From Oscillospiraceae bacterium (GTDB lineage: Bacteria > Bacillota > Clostridia > Oscillospirales > Oscillospiraceae), in assembly GCA_017548065.1 (NCBI GenBank), contig JAFYNQ010000085.1, positions 1 to 50,482 on the forward strand: a DNA stretch of 50,482 bases, given 5' to 3'. Below are positions 33,716 through 48,142 of this stretch, in pieces. The stretch's first letter is position 1. The number at the start of each line of letters is the position of its first letter. A program made the translations under genes and the position numbers. A model generated the notes under the pieces. The model was given only the letters and a program-made list of their open reading frames with translations, did no database searches and was not told the origin of the DNA.

Positions 33716-33752
33716 CCAATAAAAACGGGGCAGATCCGAAGATCTGCCCCGT
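33716..33752 (-). terminator. Terminator of the giant repeat-protein gene
   Basis: ACGGGGCAGATC (33725-33736) pairs with GATCTGCCCCGT (33741-33752) and is followed on the minus strand by TTTTTATTGG, 8 nt after the stop codon of the giant gene. Confidence 0.85.
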
Positions 33753-33760
33753 TGGCTCAT

Positions 33761-36700
33761 TTAGAAAATTGCTGCCAGCAGTCTCTTGATGAAGCTCATG
33801 GTCTGGACAGCGGCGATGGACACGGCATTGTCTGCCACATCCAAAGTCTTGCCTTCCACAGCCTTCAGCCAGCCGGCTGCCACATAGTCAGCTGCATGCT
33901 CGTGAGCAGTGGTGAACACGCCCTCACCGTTTACGGTGATGTCAGCGCCCTCAGTCAGCTCGCCCAGCACGATGGTCTTGCCGGAAGCGATCTCCAGCAG
34001 GCCGATGACAGGATTTCCGGAAATCTCTACGGGATTCACAGAATCTGTGTAAGTCAGGCTCTCGATGTTACCGCCGGTAATTTCAGCGTTACTGCCCACA
34101 TTGTAGTAGACGTAAACATTGTCCGCTGCCTTGTCTGCCTTACCGCCGGAGATCTCACCGCCGGTGACGATCAGGGTAGCTGTACCGACACAGATATTAC
34201 CGCCGGTCTTGGAGGTATAACCGCCAATGACCTTACCGTCAGAAACGGTCACGGTGGAAGAGCCCAGTGCGAAGATGTTACCGCCGCCGTTGGCATTGGT
34301 GCTGATAGCAGTACCGTTCTGCACAGTTGCGCCGCAAATAGTCAGGCTGCCGCCGCCAACGTAGATGTTACCGCCACGCTCGGTGGTGACACCGTTTTCA
34401 ATCACACCGCCGTGCAGAGTGACATTGGCAGTTGTACCGGTAGTAACCATGACGCCGCCACGGTTTACGCCATTATTGTCAGCTGCCAGCGCCATGGTGC
34501 CGCCGTACAAGTGGAAGGTAGCATCGGTGATGGAGATAACGCCGCCATTCTTGGCAGCTACACCCTTACCAATAACCTTACCGTTGCCCACAGAGTCTGT
34601 GATTGCCAGCAGAGAACCGGCCTTCTGGCTGAATACTCTTGCAGCGGATGTAATGTTGTAGCCGTTCAGATCCAGCACCAGGGTGTGGGACGCTTCAAGT
34701 GTCAGTTCTTCGGTCAGCGCCACATCAGCGGTCAGGTAGAAGTGACCGTCGGTAGCAGCGCCGTCCCAGGCAGACCAGTTGATGGAGGCATTGCAGTGCT
34801 GGCACAGCAGCTGCTCTGCAAAGCTGTCAATAACCAGCTTTTTGCCGTCCAGTTCCACGACCTGACGTGCAGTGCCGTAGATATAGCCCTTCTCCAGAGC
34901 CTCCTCTGCGTAATCGCTGTCCAGGGTGAAGACGCCCTCACCACGAGCCTGGATCTTTGCGCCCTCGGTCAGCTGACCCAGTTCAATCACCTTGCCGCTG
35001 GCAATATACAGGCTGCCGATCACAGGGTTGCCGGAAAGTTTCATGGGATCAATGGAAGCGGCATAATGCAGGCTCTCGATGTTACCGCCGGTAATTTCAG
35101 CGTTACTGCCCACGTTGTAGTAAACGTAAACATTGTCCGCTGCCTTGTCTGCCTTACCGCCGGAGATCTCACCGCCGGTGACGATCAGGGTAGCTGTACC
35201 GACACAGATATTACCGCCGGTCTTGGAGGTATAACCGTCAATGACCTTACCGTCGGAAATGGTCACAGTGGAAGAGCCCAGTGCGAAGATGTTACCGCCG
35301 CCGTTGGCGTTGGTGCTGATAGCAGTACCGTTCTGCACAGTAGCGCCGCAAACAGTCAGGCTGCCGCCGGCAACGTAGATGTTACCGCCACGCTCGGTGG
35401 TAATGCCGTCAGCGATGACACCACCACGGAGATTTACAGTTGCTGCGTTCTGCATATACAGGACGCCGCCCTGTTTTGCACTTGTACCGGTGTAGCGGAC
35501 TGTACCGCTGTACAAATCAAACTTGCCACCATTGACACGGATAACGCCACCAACAGTGTCCGAAGTGGAACCGCAACCGGTAACCTCACCGCCGCCAACG
35601 GTATCCATAATAGCCAGCTCGCCGTAAACATAGAAGGCTCTGGTTGCAGTGTTGTTGAATGCCTTGCCACGGAGATCCAGCACCAGCACATCGCCGGCAG
35701 GAACATTAACAATTGCCGTGACATTCATAGTCTCGTTCAGGTAGAAGTGACCGTCGGTTGCAGTGCCGTTCCAGGCAGCCCAGACTACTTCGGTGTTACA
35801 GTGCTGGCACATTGCGGTCTCTTCCTCATCGGAAGGATCGGAAGGATCAGAGGGATCGGGCTCAACAACAGGATCTGTCACTGCCAGCTGGTTATCAACC
35901 ACAGAGACGACCTTGGAAACGGAGTAAGCAGAGATATAACCCTTCTCTGCGATCAGCGCAGCACCGTCAAATGCGGTGGTGAATACCTCGGTAGCAGAAA
36001 CCTTAACGTTTGCACCCTCGGTCATCTCGCCCAGCTCAATGAGCTTGCCGGCAGCAATATCCATGCAGCCGATGACGGGATTACCGGACATCTTGACGGA
36101 TTCAGCATCCTTATAGTACAGAGTCTCAATGGTACCGCCGGTGATCTCAGCGTTACTCTCGCTGTAGTACAGGAAGACGTTCTTTGCGGAACCCTTGGAA
36201 TCGCCGCCGGAGATCTCGCCGCCGGAGACCTTCAGAGTACCGGTACCAACCAGGATGTTACCGCCGGTCTTGGTAGTGTAGCCACCTACGACCTTACCGC
36301 CGGTGATATCAATAACACCGTCGCCCAGGACGAAGATGTTACCACCGCCGTTGGCGTTGGAGCTGTTGGCAGTACCGTTCTGCACCGTAGCGCCGGAAAT
36401 GGTCAGGTAGCCGCTGTTGACGGTGATGTTACCACCACGCTCGGTGGAAATACCGTCGGTGAGCACACCGCCACGGAGGTTTGCGGTAGCGCCGGACTGC
36501 ATGTACAGAACACCGCCCTGCTTGACAGAGGTGCCAATGTAGCGGAGTGTACCGCTGTACAGATCAAAGTTACCGCCGTTAACACGGATGACACCGCCCA
36601 GCATTTCATCACCGGTGGAAGCGCCCTGGATCTCACCGCCGGTAGCGGAGTCCATGACCTTCATGTCACCGTAGATATAGAATGTTCTGGTAGCCTCGTT

Positions 36701-39700
36701 GATGACCTTATGGCCTGCCAGATCCAGGGTGAAGCTGTCACCTGCAGGAATCTGCACAACTTCTTCCAGAGTGATGTCCTCTTCCAGGAAGAAGTGGCCG
36801 TAGGTAGCAGCACCGTCCCAAGCGCCCCACTCTGCGTCTGCCTGGCAGATCTCACAGTAACGGGTCTCGGTCTCAATGTTGCTGGGAACACGGATAGAAA
36901 GCTTGTTGCCATCCACATTCACCACTGCGCCCTCAACATAGGGAACAACAATGCCTTCGTAAGCGTTGGCATCAGCCAGCTCGGTGGTGAACACACCGGA
37001 CGCATCCACAGCGATCTTGGCGCCGTCGGTCATCTCACCCAGGGTGATGTACTTGCCGGAGGTGATGTCCAGACGCTCAATCACGGGATTGCCGGAGAAC
37101 CGGGTGGGAGCAGCCTGATCGTTGATGGAGAAGTTGCCGATCTTACCGCCCTGCACAGTTGCGTTACTTGCGCTGTAGTAAACGTAGATATCGTTGCCTC
37201 TCTTAGGTGCAGTACCGCCGGTGACCTCACCGCCGTACACATTCAGGAAGCCGGTACCCACCAGGATGTTACCGCCGGTATTTGCGGACACACCGTTTGT
37301 GACCTTACCGCCGTAGAGGTTCATGGTGCCGCCGCCGACAACGAAGATGTTGCCGCCGCCGTTGCCGTTCTTATCACCGCTCTTACCGCCGGTGACCTCG
37401 CCGCCGTACATATTGAACACAGCGCCGGTGACATAGATGTTACCGCCACGCTCAACAGTCTCGCCGTCTGCGATCTTACCGCCGTACATATTGAATGTAC
37501 CGGGAGTCTTGTTATCATCAGCGCCCTTGCTGACGTAAACAACGCCGCCGTTCTTCTGCAGAGGGTGCTCCTTCTCCAGGCGGAGTGTGCCGCCGTAGAG
37601 GTTCACGGTACCGCCGGGGATACCCAGCACGCCGCCGGTCGCGCCCTTAACGGTGCCGTCGGCCTGGGTGGTGTTGATACCGCTGGAGGAGACAGCGCCG
37701 CCGCCCACAGTATCCATAATGTTCAGCGTTGCGTTGGTGTAGACATACATTGCACGGCCGTTCAGTCTGGTGTAGGTATGACCGTTCAGGTCAAGACAGA
37801 CTGTGCAGCTCTTGAAGGTGCTTCTGCCGGTGGAGCAAGGCAGGTAGGTGGTGGTGATGTCTGCAGGCAGGTAGAAGTGACCGCCGGCAGTGGAGAAGGA
37901 ACCGCCAACCCAGGGCTCCCATCTTACTTCCTTCTTACATACGTCACACATGCTTACCAGGCCCTTATCACGGCTTGCGTGGTAACGGATGTAAACATAG
38001 GTGTAGGTCTCATCGGTCATGCTCTTGTAAGCACGGACACGGTCACCCACCTTCAGGCTGACCTTAGCGCCAAAGTTTGCGGCATCAGGACCGACCTCAA
38101 AGACCTTGCAATCGGAGGACAAGGTGATGGTCATGGTCTCCTCACCCTTCTGCAGGGTGATCTTTCTGCCGTTGACTGCTGTGACGTCATAGTTCAGCAG
38201 GCTGGTACCGTTGGTATTCTTTGCGTAGGAGGGGCTGCCAACCTTCGTGATGATGTCATCCTTCACAGCCAGGGTGAAGGCGCCGCCGTAGTAATCCACC
38301 TTATCGGCAACAGCCTTATCCTTGGTCTTCAGAGTGACGACCTTTCCGTCGCTGCGGGAGAGGGTATAAACATAGTAGCCCTCTGCATCCAGCTCACGGA
38401 GAGAAACAGCGTTCTCGTCATCGTAAAGCCTCAGCTTGTTCCAGTACAGATAATCCACCTTACGGCTACGGATAGCCAGGATGGTAGTCTTGTCGTACAT
38501 ATCAGTGAAGGCGGTGATGGTATCGCCCACACGGACAGTGGTGGGTTCTGCAAAGGTAGCTGCCAGCGTGGTCATGTTGACAGTCTTGCAGTCATCTGCC
38601 AGGGTCAGGGTACGGGTGGCAATGGTGCCGTCTGCATTCTTATAGGAGGTCTCCACAGTATTGCCGCTGATGGAGGTAACGGTGTAGCCGTGGGCACGGC
38701 GGTAACCGCCGGTGGCATATCTGCCCTCGTATACCTCATATACAACACCGTCGCTGCCCACGTTCATGGCAAACACTGCAGGGTTGATGGCATCGATCTT
38801 GGTGGCCATGGCCTTGCTGTTGGTCTTGACGGTCATCAGCTTGCCATTGCGCATCACATCATAGTAGTACCAGCCGTCAATAGGCTCACGGGTGGTTTCC
38901 TTCTTGGTGGAGTTGTACTTACGCTCCAGGCCGTAGTAGACGGGCAGGTTGGTCTGTCTTCTGATAACGAATATCTCCAAAACCTGCAGGCTGGGGTTCT
39001 GGTATGCGTAGACATAGTCACCGGGCTGCAGCTTGGTCTCTGTGCCGTAGGTACCCACAGCAGAGAGGTTCCACACCTTGCACTCGGGGTGCATAATGCC
39101 GGAGATCAGCTTATCCGGTGCGGAGGTTCTGAAGCAGGCGAAGATAGAACCGGAAACGCTGGTGATATAACGACCCTGACCGAAGGCGCTGTAGCCGAAG
39201 ACAGAGTATACATTATATACATCCACGATCTCGTTGCCGTTGAGGGTCAGGCCGCAGACCTGAGCGCCCACGGAGTCGATCTCGGTGGCAACAGACTTAT
39301 CCTTGGTTCTGACTGTCATGATCTTGCCTTCTGTGAAGATCTCAATCTCGTACCAGCCGTTCACGGGCTCACGAGTGGTCTCCAGCAGCGTGGAATCATA
39401 CTTACGGGTGACGTTGTAGCACCACACAGCCTCTTCCACAACATGCTCGGCAACGTAGACGAACAAGGGAGTGCCGGTGGCATCTGCGAAGCAGACGATA
39501 CGGTCGCCCACAGACAGGCTGTCCACCTGCTTACCTGCACGGTCCTCGGACTTTGCAGCATAGCTCACGTCATAGATGGGGCAGTTCTCAGGCAGCACGA
39601 AGCTCTCGGTAGCACCGGCATTGCTGCCGATGATCTTGGTGGTGGAAATGGTGTTGCCGTCAATGGCGGTAACATCATAACGCTCACTGAGGATCATGCC

Positions 39701-40582
39701 ACGGATTGCCTCGTAGGAATGGATGGCCTCAATAATATAGCCTTCCTCATCAAACACAAGACCAAAGTGGCAGCTGTAGAAGCTCTGCTTATCAATGTAG
39801 TTGACCTCCACAACGTCCTTACACTTGAACTCCACATATTCACCCTCACAGTAGAAGGGAATGGTGTAGTAGCCGTTCTCGTCAGGCACACGGGTAGTCT
39901 TGCTGCTGGAAACAAACTGATTTGCTCTCCAGTAGACCTTGGACTCCTTGGGGTGAGAGGTAACGTACACATGGGTAATCTCGCCCTCGGCATTGCCGTA
40001 GACAGACAGCTTATCCATGACACCCAGCTTCTCCAGAGCGATCTCTGCGCCCTGAACCTCAGCCTTGGTGGTCACATCATAGATCTTGGTACGCTCGGTC
40101 AGCTCTATGGACTTCTTCAGACCGTTCATGACCACAGAGGAGTTGAAGGTCAGAACGCCGTCGCCCATTTCTTGCGCATAAACGTCCTCACCGATCACTG
40201 TGGCCATTTCCTTCACAGCAACAGCATCCACAATGTAGCCGTCGCCATCCAGCACGATACCCATAACAGCCATGGTATCAATGTAGTTGACCAACTGCTT
40301 GTCAGCAGTCAGCAGCTCCACGATCTGGCCGTCATAAGCATAGCGGATATGGAAGAAGCCATCCTCCGCCATCTCTCTGGACGAAGAAATAGCGCCTTTT
40401 TCAAAGTAGATCTCACGGTCCAGGTTCCAGTACAGATCCGGACGACCGTCATCTACCTGCTTGGCCTCCTGACCGCCCATAAGCACGATGCCAAGCACTG
40501 CGCCGACGATCAGCACAAGTGCAGCAATGCCAATGGCAAGCCACAAGCCAAGCTTACTTTTCTTGGTTGTTTCTTTTTTCAT
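33761..40582 (-). CDS. Giant membrane-anchored repeat protein with beta-helix modules
   Basis: A 2,273-residue protein of no family I can name. A basic start (MKKETTKKSK) and hydrophobic helix at about 11-35 look like a signal anchor, leaving the rest outside. Residues about 47-877 are five repeats of about 165 residues, each opened by an aromatic Y/W-x-N-like strand (LYWNLDREIYF; VYWRANQF; VWCYNVTRKY; VYYGLERKY; LYWNKLRLY) and containing GWY or GYY and a TKDKAVA-like turn. From about 877 come four modules (starting near 877, 1237, 1589 and 1924). Each has a CxxC-(x)n-W-x-x-W header, GH(F/Y)L, DLNG or DLAG, then many Gly-rich rungs such as ERGGNIYVGGG and NANGGGNIFALGS. These are beta-helix rungs. 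An acidic linker (DPSDPSDPSDEE) precedes module three. There is no sortase motif. AAGGAGG precedes the ATG. Surface binding or pectate-lyase-like activity is inference. Confidence 0.85.
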   Translation of the reverse strand: MKKETTKKSKLGLWLAIGIAALVLIVGAVLGIVLMGGQEAKQVDDGRPDLYWNLDREIYFEKGAISSSREMAEDGFFHIRYAYDGQIVELLTADKQLVNYIDTMAVMGIVLDGDGYIVDAVAVKEMATVIGEDVYAQEMGDGVLTFNSSVVMNGLKKSIELTERTKIYDVTTKAEVQGAEIALEKLGVMDKLSVYGNAEGEITHVYVTSHPKESKVYWRANQFVSSSKTTRVPDENGYYTIPFYCEGEYVEFKCKDVVEVNYIDKQSFYSCHFGLVFDEEGYIIEAIHSYEAIRGMILSERYDVTAIDGNTISTTKIIGSNAGATESFVLPENCPIYDVSYAAKSEDRAGKQVDSLSVGDRIVCFADATGTPLFVYVAEHVVEEAVWCYNVTRKYDSTLLETTREPVNGWYEIEIFTEGKIMTVRTKDKSVATEIDSVGAQVCGLTLNGNEIVDVYNVYSVFGYSAFGQGRYITSVSGSIFACFRTSAPDKLISGIMHPECKVWNLSAVGTYGTETKLQPGDYVYAYQNPSLQVLEIFVIRRQTNLPVYYGLERKYNSTKKETTREPIDGWYYYDVMRNGKLMTVKTNSKAMATKIDAINPAVFAMNVGSDGVVYEVYEGRYATGGYRRAHGYTVTSISGNTVETSYKNADGTIATRTLTLADDCKTVNMTTLAATFAEPTTVRVGDTITAFTDMYDKTTILAIRSRKVDYLYWNKLRLYDDENAVSLRELDAEGYYVYTLSRSDGKVVTLKTKDKAVADKVDYYGGAFTLAVKDDIITKVGSPSYAKNTNGTSLLNYDVTAVNGRKITLQKGEETMTITLSSDCKVFEVGPDAANFGAKVSLKVGDRVRAYKSMTDETYTYVYIRYHASRDKGLVSMCDVCKKEVRWEPWVGGSFSTAGGHFYLPADITTTYLPCSTGRSTFKSCTVCLDLNGHTYTRLNGRAMYVYTNATLNIMDTVGGGAVSSSGINTTQADGTVKGATGGVLGIPGGTVNLYGGTLRLEKEHPLQKNGGVVYVSKGADDNKTPGTFNMYGGKIADGETVERGGNIYVTGAVFNMYGGEVTGGKSGDKNGNGGGNIFVVGGGTMNLYGGKVTNGVSANTGGNILVGTGFLNVYGGEVTGGTAPKRGNDIYVYYSASNATVQGGKIGNFSINDQAAPTRFSGNPVIERLDITSGKYITLGEMTDGAKIAVDASGVFTTELADANAYEGIVVPYVEGAVVNVDGNKLSIRVPSNIETETRYCEICQADAEWGAWDGAATYGHFFLEEDITLEEVVQIPAGDSFTLDLAGHKVINEATRTFYIYGDMKVMDSATGGEIQGASTGDEMLGGVIRVNGGNFDLYSGTLRYIGTSVKQGGVLYMQSGATANLRGGVLTDGISTERGGNITVNSGYLTISGATVQNGTANSSNANGGGNIFVLGDGVIDITGGKVVGGYTTKTGGNILVGTGTLKVSGGEISGGDSKGSAKNVFLYYSESNAEITGGTIETLYYKDAESVKMSGNPVIGCMDIAAGKLIELGEMTEGANVKVSATEVFTTAFDGAALIAEKGYISAYSVSKVVSVVDNQLAVTDPVVEPDPSDPSDPSDEEETAMCQHCNTEVVWAAWNGTATDGHFYLNETMNVTAIVNVPAGDVLVLDLRGKAFNNTATRAFYVYGELAIMDTVGGGEVTGCGSTSDTVGGVIRVNGGKFDLYSGTVRYTGTSAKQGGVLYMQNAATVNLRGGVIADGITTERGGNIYVAGGSLTVCGATVQNGTAISTNANGGGNIFALGSSTVTISDGKVIDGYTSKTGGNICVGTATLIVTGGEISGGKADKAADNVYVYYNVGSNAEITGGNIESLHYAASIDPMKLSGNPVIGSLYIASGKVIELGQLTEGAKIQARGEGVFTLDSDYAEEALEKGYIYGTARQVVELDGKKLVIDSFAEQLLCQHCNASINWSAWDGAATDGHFYLTADVALTEELTLEASHTLVLDLNGYNITSAARVFSQKAGSLLAITDSVGNGKVIGKGVAAKNGGVISITDATFHLYGGTMALAADNNGVNRGGVMVTTGTTANVTLHGGVIENGVTTERGGNIYVGGGSLTICGATVQNGTAISTNANGGGNIFALGSSTVTVSDGKVIGGYTSKTGGNICVGTATLIVTGGEISGGKADKAADNVYVYYNVGSNAEITGGNIESLTYTDSVNPVEISGNPVIGLLEIASGKTIVLGELTEGADITVNGEGVFTTAHEHAADYVAAGWLKAVEGKTLDVADNAVSIAAVQTMSFIKRLLAAIF
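34057..34387. repeat. 331-bp near-identical direct repeat, copy A
   Basis: This segment of module four matches 35071-35401 in module three with few substitutions and no insertions or deletions; the two are exactly 1,014 bp (338 codons) apart. It encodes the ERGGNIYVGGG...ANGGGNIFALGS rungs. The identity is far higher than between other modules, so a recent duplication or gene conversion is likely. Confidence 0.8.
35071..35401. repeat. 331-bp near-identical direct repeat, copy B
   Basis: Partner of 34057-34387, offset 1,014 bp, in module three. Differences are scattered single bases, mostly at third codon positions (for example GTTGCC/GTAGCG types). Confidence 0.8.
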
Positions 40583-40682
40583 AAAAGACCTCCTTGCCGT
40601 CCCTCCCCGAGGGACAAGTGTTCGCGTTGAAACGCCACACAAGAACCGTCATTTTCCACAAAAACCAGCGTGCGTTTTTGTG
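40583..40682 (-). promoter_or_regulatory. Structured 5' leader of the giant gene (three hairpins)
   Basis: Three consecutive stem-loops lie in the 100 nt before the ATG: CACAAAAAC/GTTTTTGTG (40657-40682, 9 bp), GTGT-CGTT/AACG-ACAC type (40618-40640), and CTTG-TCCCTC/GAGGGA-CAAG (40593-40618). The last ends directly at the AGGAGG ribosome site, so its folding could change translation. Whether it is a regulatory leader is inference. Confidence 0.45.
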
Positions 40683-43800: not shown

Positions 43801-44436
43801 TCAGGCGTTTGCCTCCAGGAACTTGGCAAAGACGTCGGAGAAGGTGTCGTTCACGTCAAAGGGAGGCTCGTAAGCCACCTGACTGGTCACAAGACACTTG
43901 TCCAGCTCTGCGGAGATCCCATCGGACTTCTTGTTCAGGCCGGCAACGTAGCTGCGGATCTTGTTGCGGTCAAAGTTGATGGTGGTCACACGCTTCACGT
44001 CACAGCAAAAGCTGACCTGGTTACCCTCGGCATTGAATTTATAGGCAGTGCCACCGCCGGGGCTCACACGCTCGTAGCCACGGATGGCAGCCATGTCACG
44101 GAACACGCTTGCGATCTCCTGCCGCTTGGTGTTCAGGCTCACCTCGCCGTCAAAGTCAATGTCCATGCTCCGCTTGGCGCCACGGATGGCGTAGCCCAGC
44201 TTCTCACGCTGCTCCAGCAGATACAGCAGGAAGGCTGCCAGCCGATTCACATCCTCTGCATACTCGCAGTCAGGGGTCAGCACGGAGGTCTCGTCCTCAC
44301 GCTGAGGGTCGGTCTTGTGAATCAACTTGGTGATCTCCACCGTCACCAGGTTATCCTCACGTCGCAAAATGCACAGCGCATCACTCATCAGCCGCTGCAG
44401 TCTGTTCTGAAAACGAAAAGCTTCTTTCAAATTCAT
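43801..44436 (-). CDS. Protein of unknown function
   Basis: A 211-residue soluble protein that I do not recognise. It is rich in charged residues and helices in the first half (NLKEAFRFQNRLQRLMSDAL; LLYLLEQREKLGYAIRGAKRS). The second half may be beta-rich (TAYKFNAEGNQVSFCCDVKRV). The codon use is like the core genome (GC-rich), unlike the cassette upstream. The start is at 44436 (AGGAG 9 nt before) or 44442. The gene stands 160 nt after the cassette terminator, so it may be transcribed separately. No function is proposed. Confidence 0.75.
   Translation of the reverse strand: MNLKEAFRFQNRLQRLMSDALCILRREDNLVTVEITKLIHKTDPQREDETSVLTPDCEYAEDVNRLAAFLLYLLEQREKLGYAIRGAKRSMDIDFDGEVSLNTKRQEIASVFRDMAAIRGYERVSPGGGTAYKFNAEGNQVSFCCDVKRVTTINFDRNKIRSYVAGLNKKSDGISAELDKCLVTSQVAYEPPFDVNDTFSDVFAKFLEANA

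Positions 44437-48066: not shown

Positions 48067-48142
<76 letters not shown>

Follow-up and report, generated by a model that had tools for sequence, protein, structure and literature searches.

The window analysed here, a stretch of 50,482 nucleotides from an Oscillospiraceae bacterium, harbors a single gene filling nearly 7 kb (Table 1), whose product comprises a short basic start, a sole hydrophobic helix of membrane type, five N-terminal repeats of about 165 residues (the N repeats) and four C-terminal modules of about 340 residues. This layout had been proposed in a sequence-only reading of the DNA and was borne out by comparison of the protein with itself, in which strong diagonals appear at 160 to 172 residues in the N-terminal half and at 335 to 351 in the C-terminal half; the N repeats begin at about residues 50, 216, 386, 548 and 712, and the modules as cut span 362, 345, 334 and 337 residues. 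An iterated N-repeat profile recovers all five repeats with E values of 3e-41 to 6e-51, which follow by construction, the profile having been built from those same repeats. Each module opens with the header that the earlier reading had described, consisting of a CxxC motif (at residues 879, 1243, 1592 and 1927), two tryptophans and the sequence GHF(Y/F)L; an extra CxxC at residue 926 was not counted as a header. A 100-nt stretch is 98% identical between modules 3 and 4, and a recent exchange between them is therefore probable.

Table 1. Features of the giant gene; residues are those of its product, counted from the ATG.
Feature	Position in window	Strand	Basis
Giant gene, 2273 aa	33761..40582	-	ORF and translation
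Hydrophobic helix, residues 11-36 (approximate), predicted membrane anchor, no lipobox	40475..40552	-	sequence; class A N-termini compared
N repeat 1, residues 50-215	39938..40435	-	self-comparison, repeat profile
N repeat 2, residues 216-383	39434..39937	-	self-comparison, repeat profile
N repeat 3, residues 384-547	38942..39433	-	self-comparison, repeat profile
N repeat 4, residues 548-711	38450..38941	-	self-comparison, repeat profile
N repeat 5, residues 712-872	37967..38449	-	self-comparison, repeat profile
Module 1, residues 876-1237	36872..37957	-	
Module 2, residues 1240-1587	35822..36865	-	
Module 3, residues 1588-1924	34811..35821	-	
Module 4, residues 1924-2262	33797..34813	-	
Header of module 1, CDVC..W..W..GHFYL	37589..37954	-	
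Header of module 2, CEIC..W..W..GHFFL	36551..36862	-	
Header of module 3, CQHC..W..W..GHFYL	35504..35815	-	
Header of module 4, CQHC..W..W..GHFYL	34499..34810	-	
100 nt in module 4 that match 35157-35256 in module 3 at 98% identity	34143..34242		
Antisense frame, open over 2292 aa, explained by codon choice	33752..40630	+	ORF list, codon counts

Scans of the whole protein against Pfam, NCBIfam and PHROGs returned no family above cut-off, so that the earlier statement that no described family has this build stands for those three libraries. Neither an LPxTG nor an SLH model was matched in those scans, and neither feature was seen when the sequence itself was read, in agreement with the absence first reported. 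The C-terminal translocator barrel of autotransporters likewise gave no Pfam or NCBIfam match above cut-off, the Pfam family Beta_helix (PF13229) did not match the giant protein, and a single-sequence search of the PDB returned two matches at chance level (E 2.1 and 3.2). A profile check for a characterised family, using alignments of 22 module sequences and of repeat pairs, revealed none common to the two. Searches of phages with modules 1 to 3 and of plasmids with the N-terminal half gave no match, and a literature search found nothing related by title, although the family may have been described in other wording. Elsewhere in the window, GC content falls to 0.45-0.47 and GC skew to as low as -0.28 between positions 44001 and 50000, and a tRNA-Ala lies at 48067.

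The body of each module had been read as a beta-helix, and that fold, as a prediction, is supported in part. Across 93 header-bearing genes (described below), the spacing between successive GG(N/S/V/A/T)(I/V/L/M) motifs, counted with no shuffle control, peaks at 24-28 residues with a mode of 27; 314 of 1080 spacings fall within 22-33, and a second peak lies at 11-15. Within the giant protein, successive GG motifs are mostly 26-30 residues apart (exceptions being 12, 15, 34, 43 and 45). Glycine autocorrelation in its modules has its maximum at lags of 6-7 residues and comes to 0.11 at lag 26, about the top of 300 shuffles (0.108), and a hydrophobic signal at lag 19 (0.11) is level with the top shuffle (0.106). 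When a profile of 22 modules was compared with the PDB, pertactin (1dab) ranked first, with a weak E value of 1.2e-3. Together, a spacing near 27 residues and the likeness to pertactin fit a three-stranded rung; against the fold stand the pattern of glycine autocorrelation and the result that Pfam Beta_helix is hit by just one of the 22 aligned modules, at E 0.033. Pfam Big families are absent from the giant protein, and Big_2 occurs in two of the 22 module sequences. The N repeats match Ika8 and Ika4, two beta-propellers made by design, with E values of 6e-9 and 5e-5, respectively, for whole chains and about 0.002-0.02 for single domains. A propeller fold was a lead not built on, and since these designs are the only matches, the reading of the N repeats as a stalk is not established.

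The earlier interpretation is partly supported as a whole; what it missed is that the gene belongs to a large paralogous family of two classes. In its own genome, an assembly of 2,460,682 bases, the giant protein matched 117 stretches, and a profile made from 47 headers of that genome gave 92 matches, a few of them weak. Since the header recurs some ninety times, the giant protein is apparently one of many surface and secreted proteins that together form a large, undescribed group. The 42 family genes that were read total 66,373 aa (cut stop to stop, and leaving out matches on contigs C43, C111, C125 and C99), or about 8% of the 2.46 Mb assembly. Together with 5, 21 and 25 header-bearing genes from the genomes G1064, G1065 and G1066, respectively (leaving out one G1066 match, on C48), these make up the set of 93.

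The family falls into two classes: class A combines N repeats with modules, and class B combines a signal peptide with modules and often an enzyme domain. N repeats occur in six of the 42 own genes, with one further stretch on contig C109 (L007) in a fragment that lacks a header, and at least two are present in 25 of the 93 genes (own genome 6, G1064 1, G1065 8, G1066 10). Domains adjoining modules in Pfam searches were DUF4886, metallo-beta-lactamase, Exo_endo_phos and BspA-type leucine-rich repeats; among 20 pieces from 20 module genes, one of which falls outside the 42, a family reached the cut-off in 12 and none did in 8. DUF4886 is described as an SGNH hydrolase family of unknown activity (PMC9487903). 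A DUF4886 profile matched 17 of the 42 own genes and one gene of G1064. An additional 'mid-domain', which starts near the motif FHRL and usually either separates the modules from the enzyme domain or ends the protein at its C-terminus, was matched in 31 of 42 own genes (for example in the class B gene at L017:7130-11431, minus strand) and in 10 of 21 in G1065. None of the 25 genes with at least two N repeats matched either profile; both were built from own genes only (the mid-domain profile from four seeds) and may miss distant copies, so that their absence from all 25 genes of G1066 may be such a miss.

Comparison of N-termini points to membrane attachment of class A proteins at that end. In five N-repeat genes from two relatives (L080, L081, L101, L104 and L106), the hydrophobic run ends, as judged by eye, in a lipobox, and the remaining N-repeat genes carry a membrane-type run, which suggests different anchors for the same place. 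Lipobox pattern matches in L079 and L086 were judged false, and none was seen in class A genes of the own genome. The single helix first reported for the giant protein could instead be a cleaved signal.

Several other loci illustrate the variety of the family. Of the eight N repeats in a giant at L009:12292-19512 (minus strand), two follow the first module header, and a BspA-type leucine-rich repeat giant at L025:2-11680 (plus strand), with 3893 aa within the stretch read, has one CxxC header, at residue 2924. Four module genes stand in a row at L014:1638-15751 (plus strand); the N-terminal parts of the first two gave no Pfam or NCBIfam match above cut-off and look like distant ceramidase relatives. 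Lipoprotein genes resembling Ceramidase_alk (E 4.4e-8; score 32.7 bits, cut-off 32.1) adjoin a class A giant at L010:14931-17000 (minus strand). An open frame at L010:14941-16683 (plus strand), considered as a gene family beside giants, was rejected because it lies opposite these lipoprotein genes, and a later frame score also spoke against it; with 31 matches in its own genome and no match among 29 relatives, this antisense frame hints that the ceramidase-like locus represents another large family.

The giant gene itself is overlain by an antisense frame, which was rejected as a second gene. None of its 280 leucine and serine codons is TTA, CTA or TCA, where 13.3 would be expected from eight neighbouring genes, and the absence of these codons from ATG to stop leaves the opposite strand fully open. 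Two other family genes likewise lack them, and in the whole family they amount to 1.5%, against 4.2% in a control of 165 ORFs cleaned of frames that are probably not genes. Relative to that control, the giant gene also favors CTG for leucine (0.76 vs 0.56), AAC for asparagine (0.74 vs 0.59) and TAC for tyrosine (0.70 vs 0.52); the family as a whole lies near it (CTG 0.60 vs 0.56, AAC 0.58 vs 0.59). Because the bias is strong in the giant gene and slight family-wide, codon use suggests high expression for the giant gene but not for the family. Such a bias, along with the share of the assembly that the family occupies, would suit a structural coat, in which abundant rods form a protective sheath or layer with little specific binding; that explanation is nevertheless improbable, as CTG use in the family hardly exceeds the control, the paralogs differ in module number and sequence, and enzyme domains are attached to many of the modules.

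The composition and inheritance of the header bear on its possible chemistry. By pattern, 75 of 89 own headers carry CxxC, 10 carry CxC next to the tryptophan and the remaining 4 are partial or doubtful, and all 13 headers of G1064 carry CxxC. In G1065 and G1066, 60 of 110 headers carry a different cluster, H-C-x-C...H-x-C or H, alongside 15 with CxxC, 8 with CxC near the tryptophan and 27 of other types (at least one of these last, L079 at 381, lies within an N repeat and is false). Cysteine makes up 5.8% of the 40 residues before the header tryptophan in own genes (204/3529), against 1.3% in the rest of these proteins (836/62844). In genes with at least one N repeat, the first module thereafter has CxxC in 21 of 27 cases (own genome 6/6, G1064 1/1, G1065 3/8, G1066 11/12). 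With patterns slightly stricter than those used to count header types, the histidine of GHF(Y/F)L is kept in 68 of 70 own CxxC headers (one of the two exceptions is a gap where a contig ends), in all 13 of G1064 and in all 15 of G1065 and G1066, where headers with the other cluster have it in 11 of 66 (Fisher p 9.5e-10, for headers that are related by descent). Six CxxC headers of G1066 have lost the glycine before this histidine and kept the histidine itself, and of five first headers in G1065 class A genes that lack CxxC, three also lack the histidine and two have it. On a tree of the remaining columns, header type changes six times, twice on supported branches; the histidine follows in 1.8 of the 2 supported changes on average and never moves in the opposite direction, and with two such changes the pairing cannot reach significance.

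The suggestion that CxxC and histidine form a metal site is thus strengthened by their pairing and by the alternative Cys/His cluster, and tempered by the small number of independent changes. A CxxC motif by itself fits a disulfide or redox role equally well, particularly in proteins that are presumably exported; this alternative is doubtful, since related modules carry histidine-rich clusters at the same place (some of them HxH, wholly without cysteine, where a disulfide is impossible) and the downstream histidine is kept together with CxxC. The retention of CxxC and histidine as a unit, and the H-C-x-C...H-x-C cluster elsewhere, favor a metal cap, and we hold with moderate confidence that the header is a metal site with swappable ligands. 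No paper on the capping of beta-helices by zinc or cysteine was found by title.

The conserved putative ligands number two cysteines and one histidine, and the site may therefore be incomplete within one module. This feature would suit a surface scaffold built on contacts between modules, by which class A giants, themselves anchored, retain the secreted enzymes of class B on the cell; the CxxC headers of two modules could even share one metal in the manner of a zinc hook. The same module indeed occurs in anchored proteins that lack the tested enzyme domains and in unanchored proteins that have them, and 85 of 89 own headers carry CxxC or a CxC adjacent to the tryptophan, as do (with CxxC) all 13 in G1064. 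Many modules in G1065 and G1066, however, carry a cluster whose four ligands would make up a whole site in a single module, and a scaffold of this kind is unlikely, with the caveat that both genomes nonetheless have class A genes and G1065 has mid-domain genes as well. A cell-surface display system of gut Clostridia in which tethered giants and secreted enzymes assemble through one shared, metal-capped beta-helix module is distinctly improbable; it would differ from the cellulosome, which employs cohesin and dockerin, in relying on like-to-like module contacts bridged by metal.

The size of the family might also be inflated if some of its contigs came from another organism in the bin. The assembly, in 126 contigs, is 88.9% complete with 3.5% contamination; neither the full header nor an N repeat was found in any of 24 congeners, seven of which show weak partial header matches, and a 123-residue protein just downstream of the giant gene matches 9 of 15 congeners with its best match (63%) in another family of the order. 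Opposing this, 21 of the 24 congeners share, at 59-74% identity, a nearby gene that we take to be TrkH-like, an adjoining gene, presumably GH4-like, is 81% identical in one congener, and at 21 loci the GC content of family genes lies within about 0.04 of their flanks, which range from 0.46 to 0.56. Two neighbour tests on other contigs are void with respect to bin purity, because the frames used are probably not genes. An assembly artefact of this kind appears very improbable.

Overlapping taxonomic samples, each of which counts the own genome, were searched for the header: 28 of 300 genomes from the family and 19 of 394 from the order have matches at E 1e-8 or better, as do 3 of 398 from the phylum at E 1e-10. 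Matches elsewhere in the order, of which 1 to 5 are listed per genome, share the body of the header from the tryptophan onward (E 1e-8 to 2e-15), as in HxHDG..W..W..GNYYLT..LCLNGH. No CxxC directly precedes the tryptophan in the matches of 25 of the 26 loci L039-L064 (L062 being the one without printed matches), and many of these headers have HxH or H-x-x-C-G...C...H clusters; these glycine-rich modules thus differ in having a Cys/His cluster, HxH or nothing in place of CxxC. A scan of 84,980 species genomes, for which the 47-header profile was too diverse and the N-terminal half plus first module served as query, located five loci in three gut-type MAGs with giants of the same build, though it relied on two short patterns and may have missed relatives. 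Two of the MAGs are Oscillospiraceae (titled yak caecum and water-buffalo colon) and the third is Lachnospiraceae Tb.RUG.154, in which RUG presumably denotes rumen; they hold 13, 49 and 51 header matches at 1e-6. The source bacterium is probably likewise from an animal gut.

These observations establish the giant gene as real and conserved, without a name in the searched libraries, and as one product of a striking expansion. For the role of the giant protein, a class A member, the explanation that we prefer, and that may equally well prove right or wrong, is a membrane-tethered stalk crossing the wall and displaying metal-capped beta-helix rods that bind glycans or cells. The N-terminal helix would stay in the membrane and the rest of the chain would be exported, with the five N repeats as a stalk across the Gram-positive wall. 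The four modules would form right-handed beta-helix rods, each with about six rungs of some 27 residues, the first rung closed by a Cys-Cys-His metal knuckle (probably zinc) and capped by the two tryptophans and the GHF(Y/F)L strand. The exposed rods may bind glycans, neighbouring cells or plant fibre; adhesion or glycan binding is what we infer for the modules generally, and class B paralogs, bearing the same modules behind a cleavable signal, would use them to direct secreted hydrolases to targets of that kind. Genes with one unnamed module, outside the searched libraries, take up about 8% of the assembly, and if the modules do bind glycans or partners they may be a main means by which the bacterium holds on to its surroundings and places its enzymes. 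Given the two-class layout, how such bacteria keep their secreted enzymes close to the cell becomes a testable question.

Several known systems invite comparison. The Rad50 zinc hook and zinc ribbons have a Cys pair of the CPxCG type; the pair is alike here, but the putative site would probably be extracellular, on a repeat protein, with its histidine about 20 residues after the Cys pair. The beta-helical passengers of autotransporters, including pertactin, show the weak profile likeness noted above in the region of the rungs; they are not known to carry a CxxC header, are secreted through a Gram-negative barrel that the giant protein lacks, and are anchored at the opposite end.

The closest parallel is found in the adhesin-like proteins (ALPs) of gut and rumen methanogens. 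These giants are rich in repeats and contain right-handed beta-helical domains, and most of them are anchored in the membrane at the N-terminus; more than 40 genes, occupying over 10% of a genome, encode them, and they have few database matches (PMC11532034). One of them, Mru_1499 of Methanobrevibacter ruminantium, is reported as the adhesin used with rumen protozoa (PMC10658910). The same description of the ALPs presents a capping helix of the beta-helix as conserved (PMC11532034), so that a metal-capped first rung, if true, would be an unusual end for such a fold. The giant protein appears to share with the ALPs an N-terminal anchor, as judged from its sequence, and membership in a large paralogous family. 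It differs in that the ALPs are archaeal and join their beta-helix to archaeal Big domains, whereas its second domain is the 165-residue repeat; in that no CxxC-W-W header, which here stands on each module, is mentioned in the parts of their description consulted; and in that many members of its family carry enzyme domains. By analogy with the ALPs, the most likely role of the giant protein would be to work as they do, by means of a tether, a stalk and binding rods.
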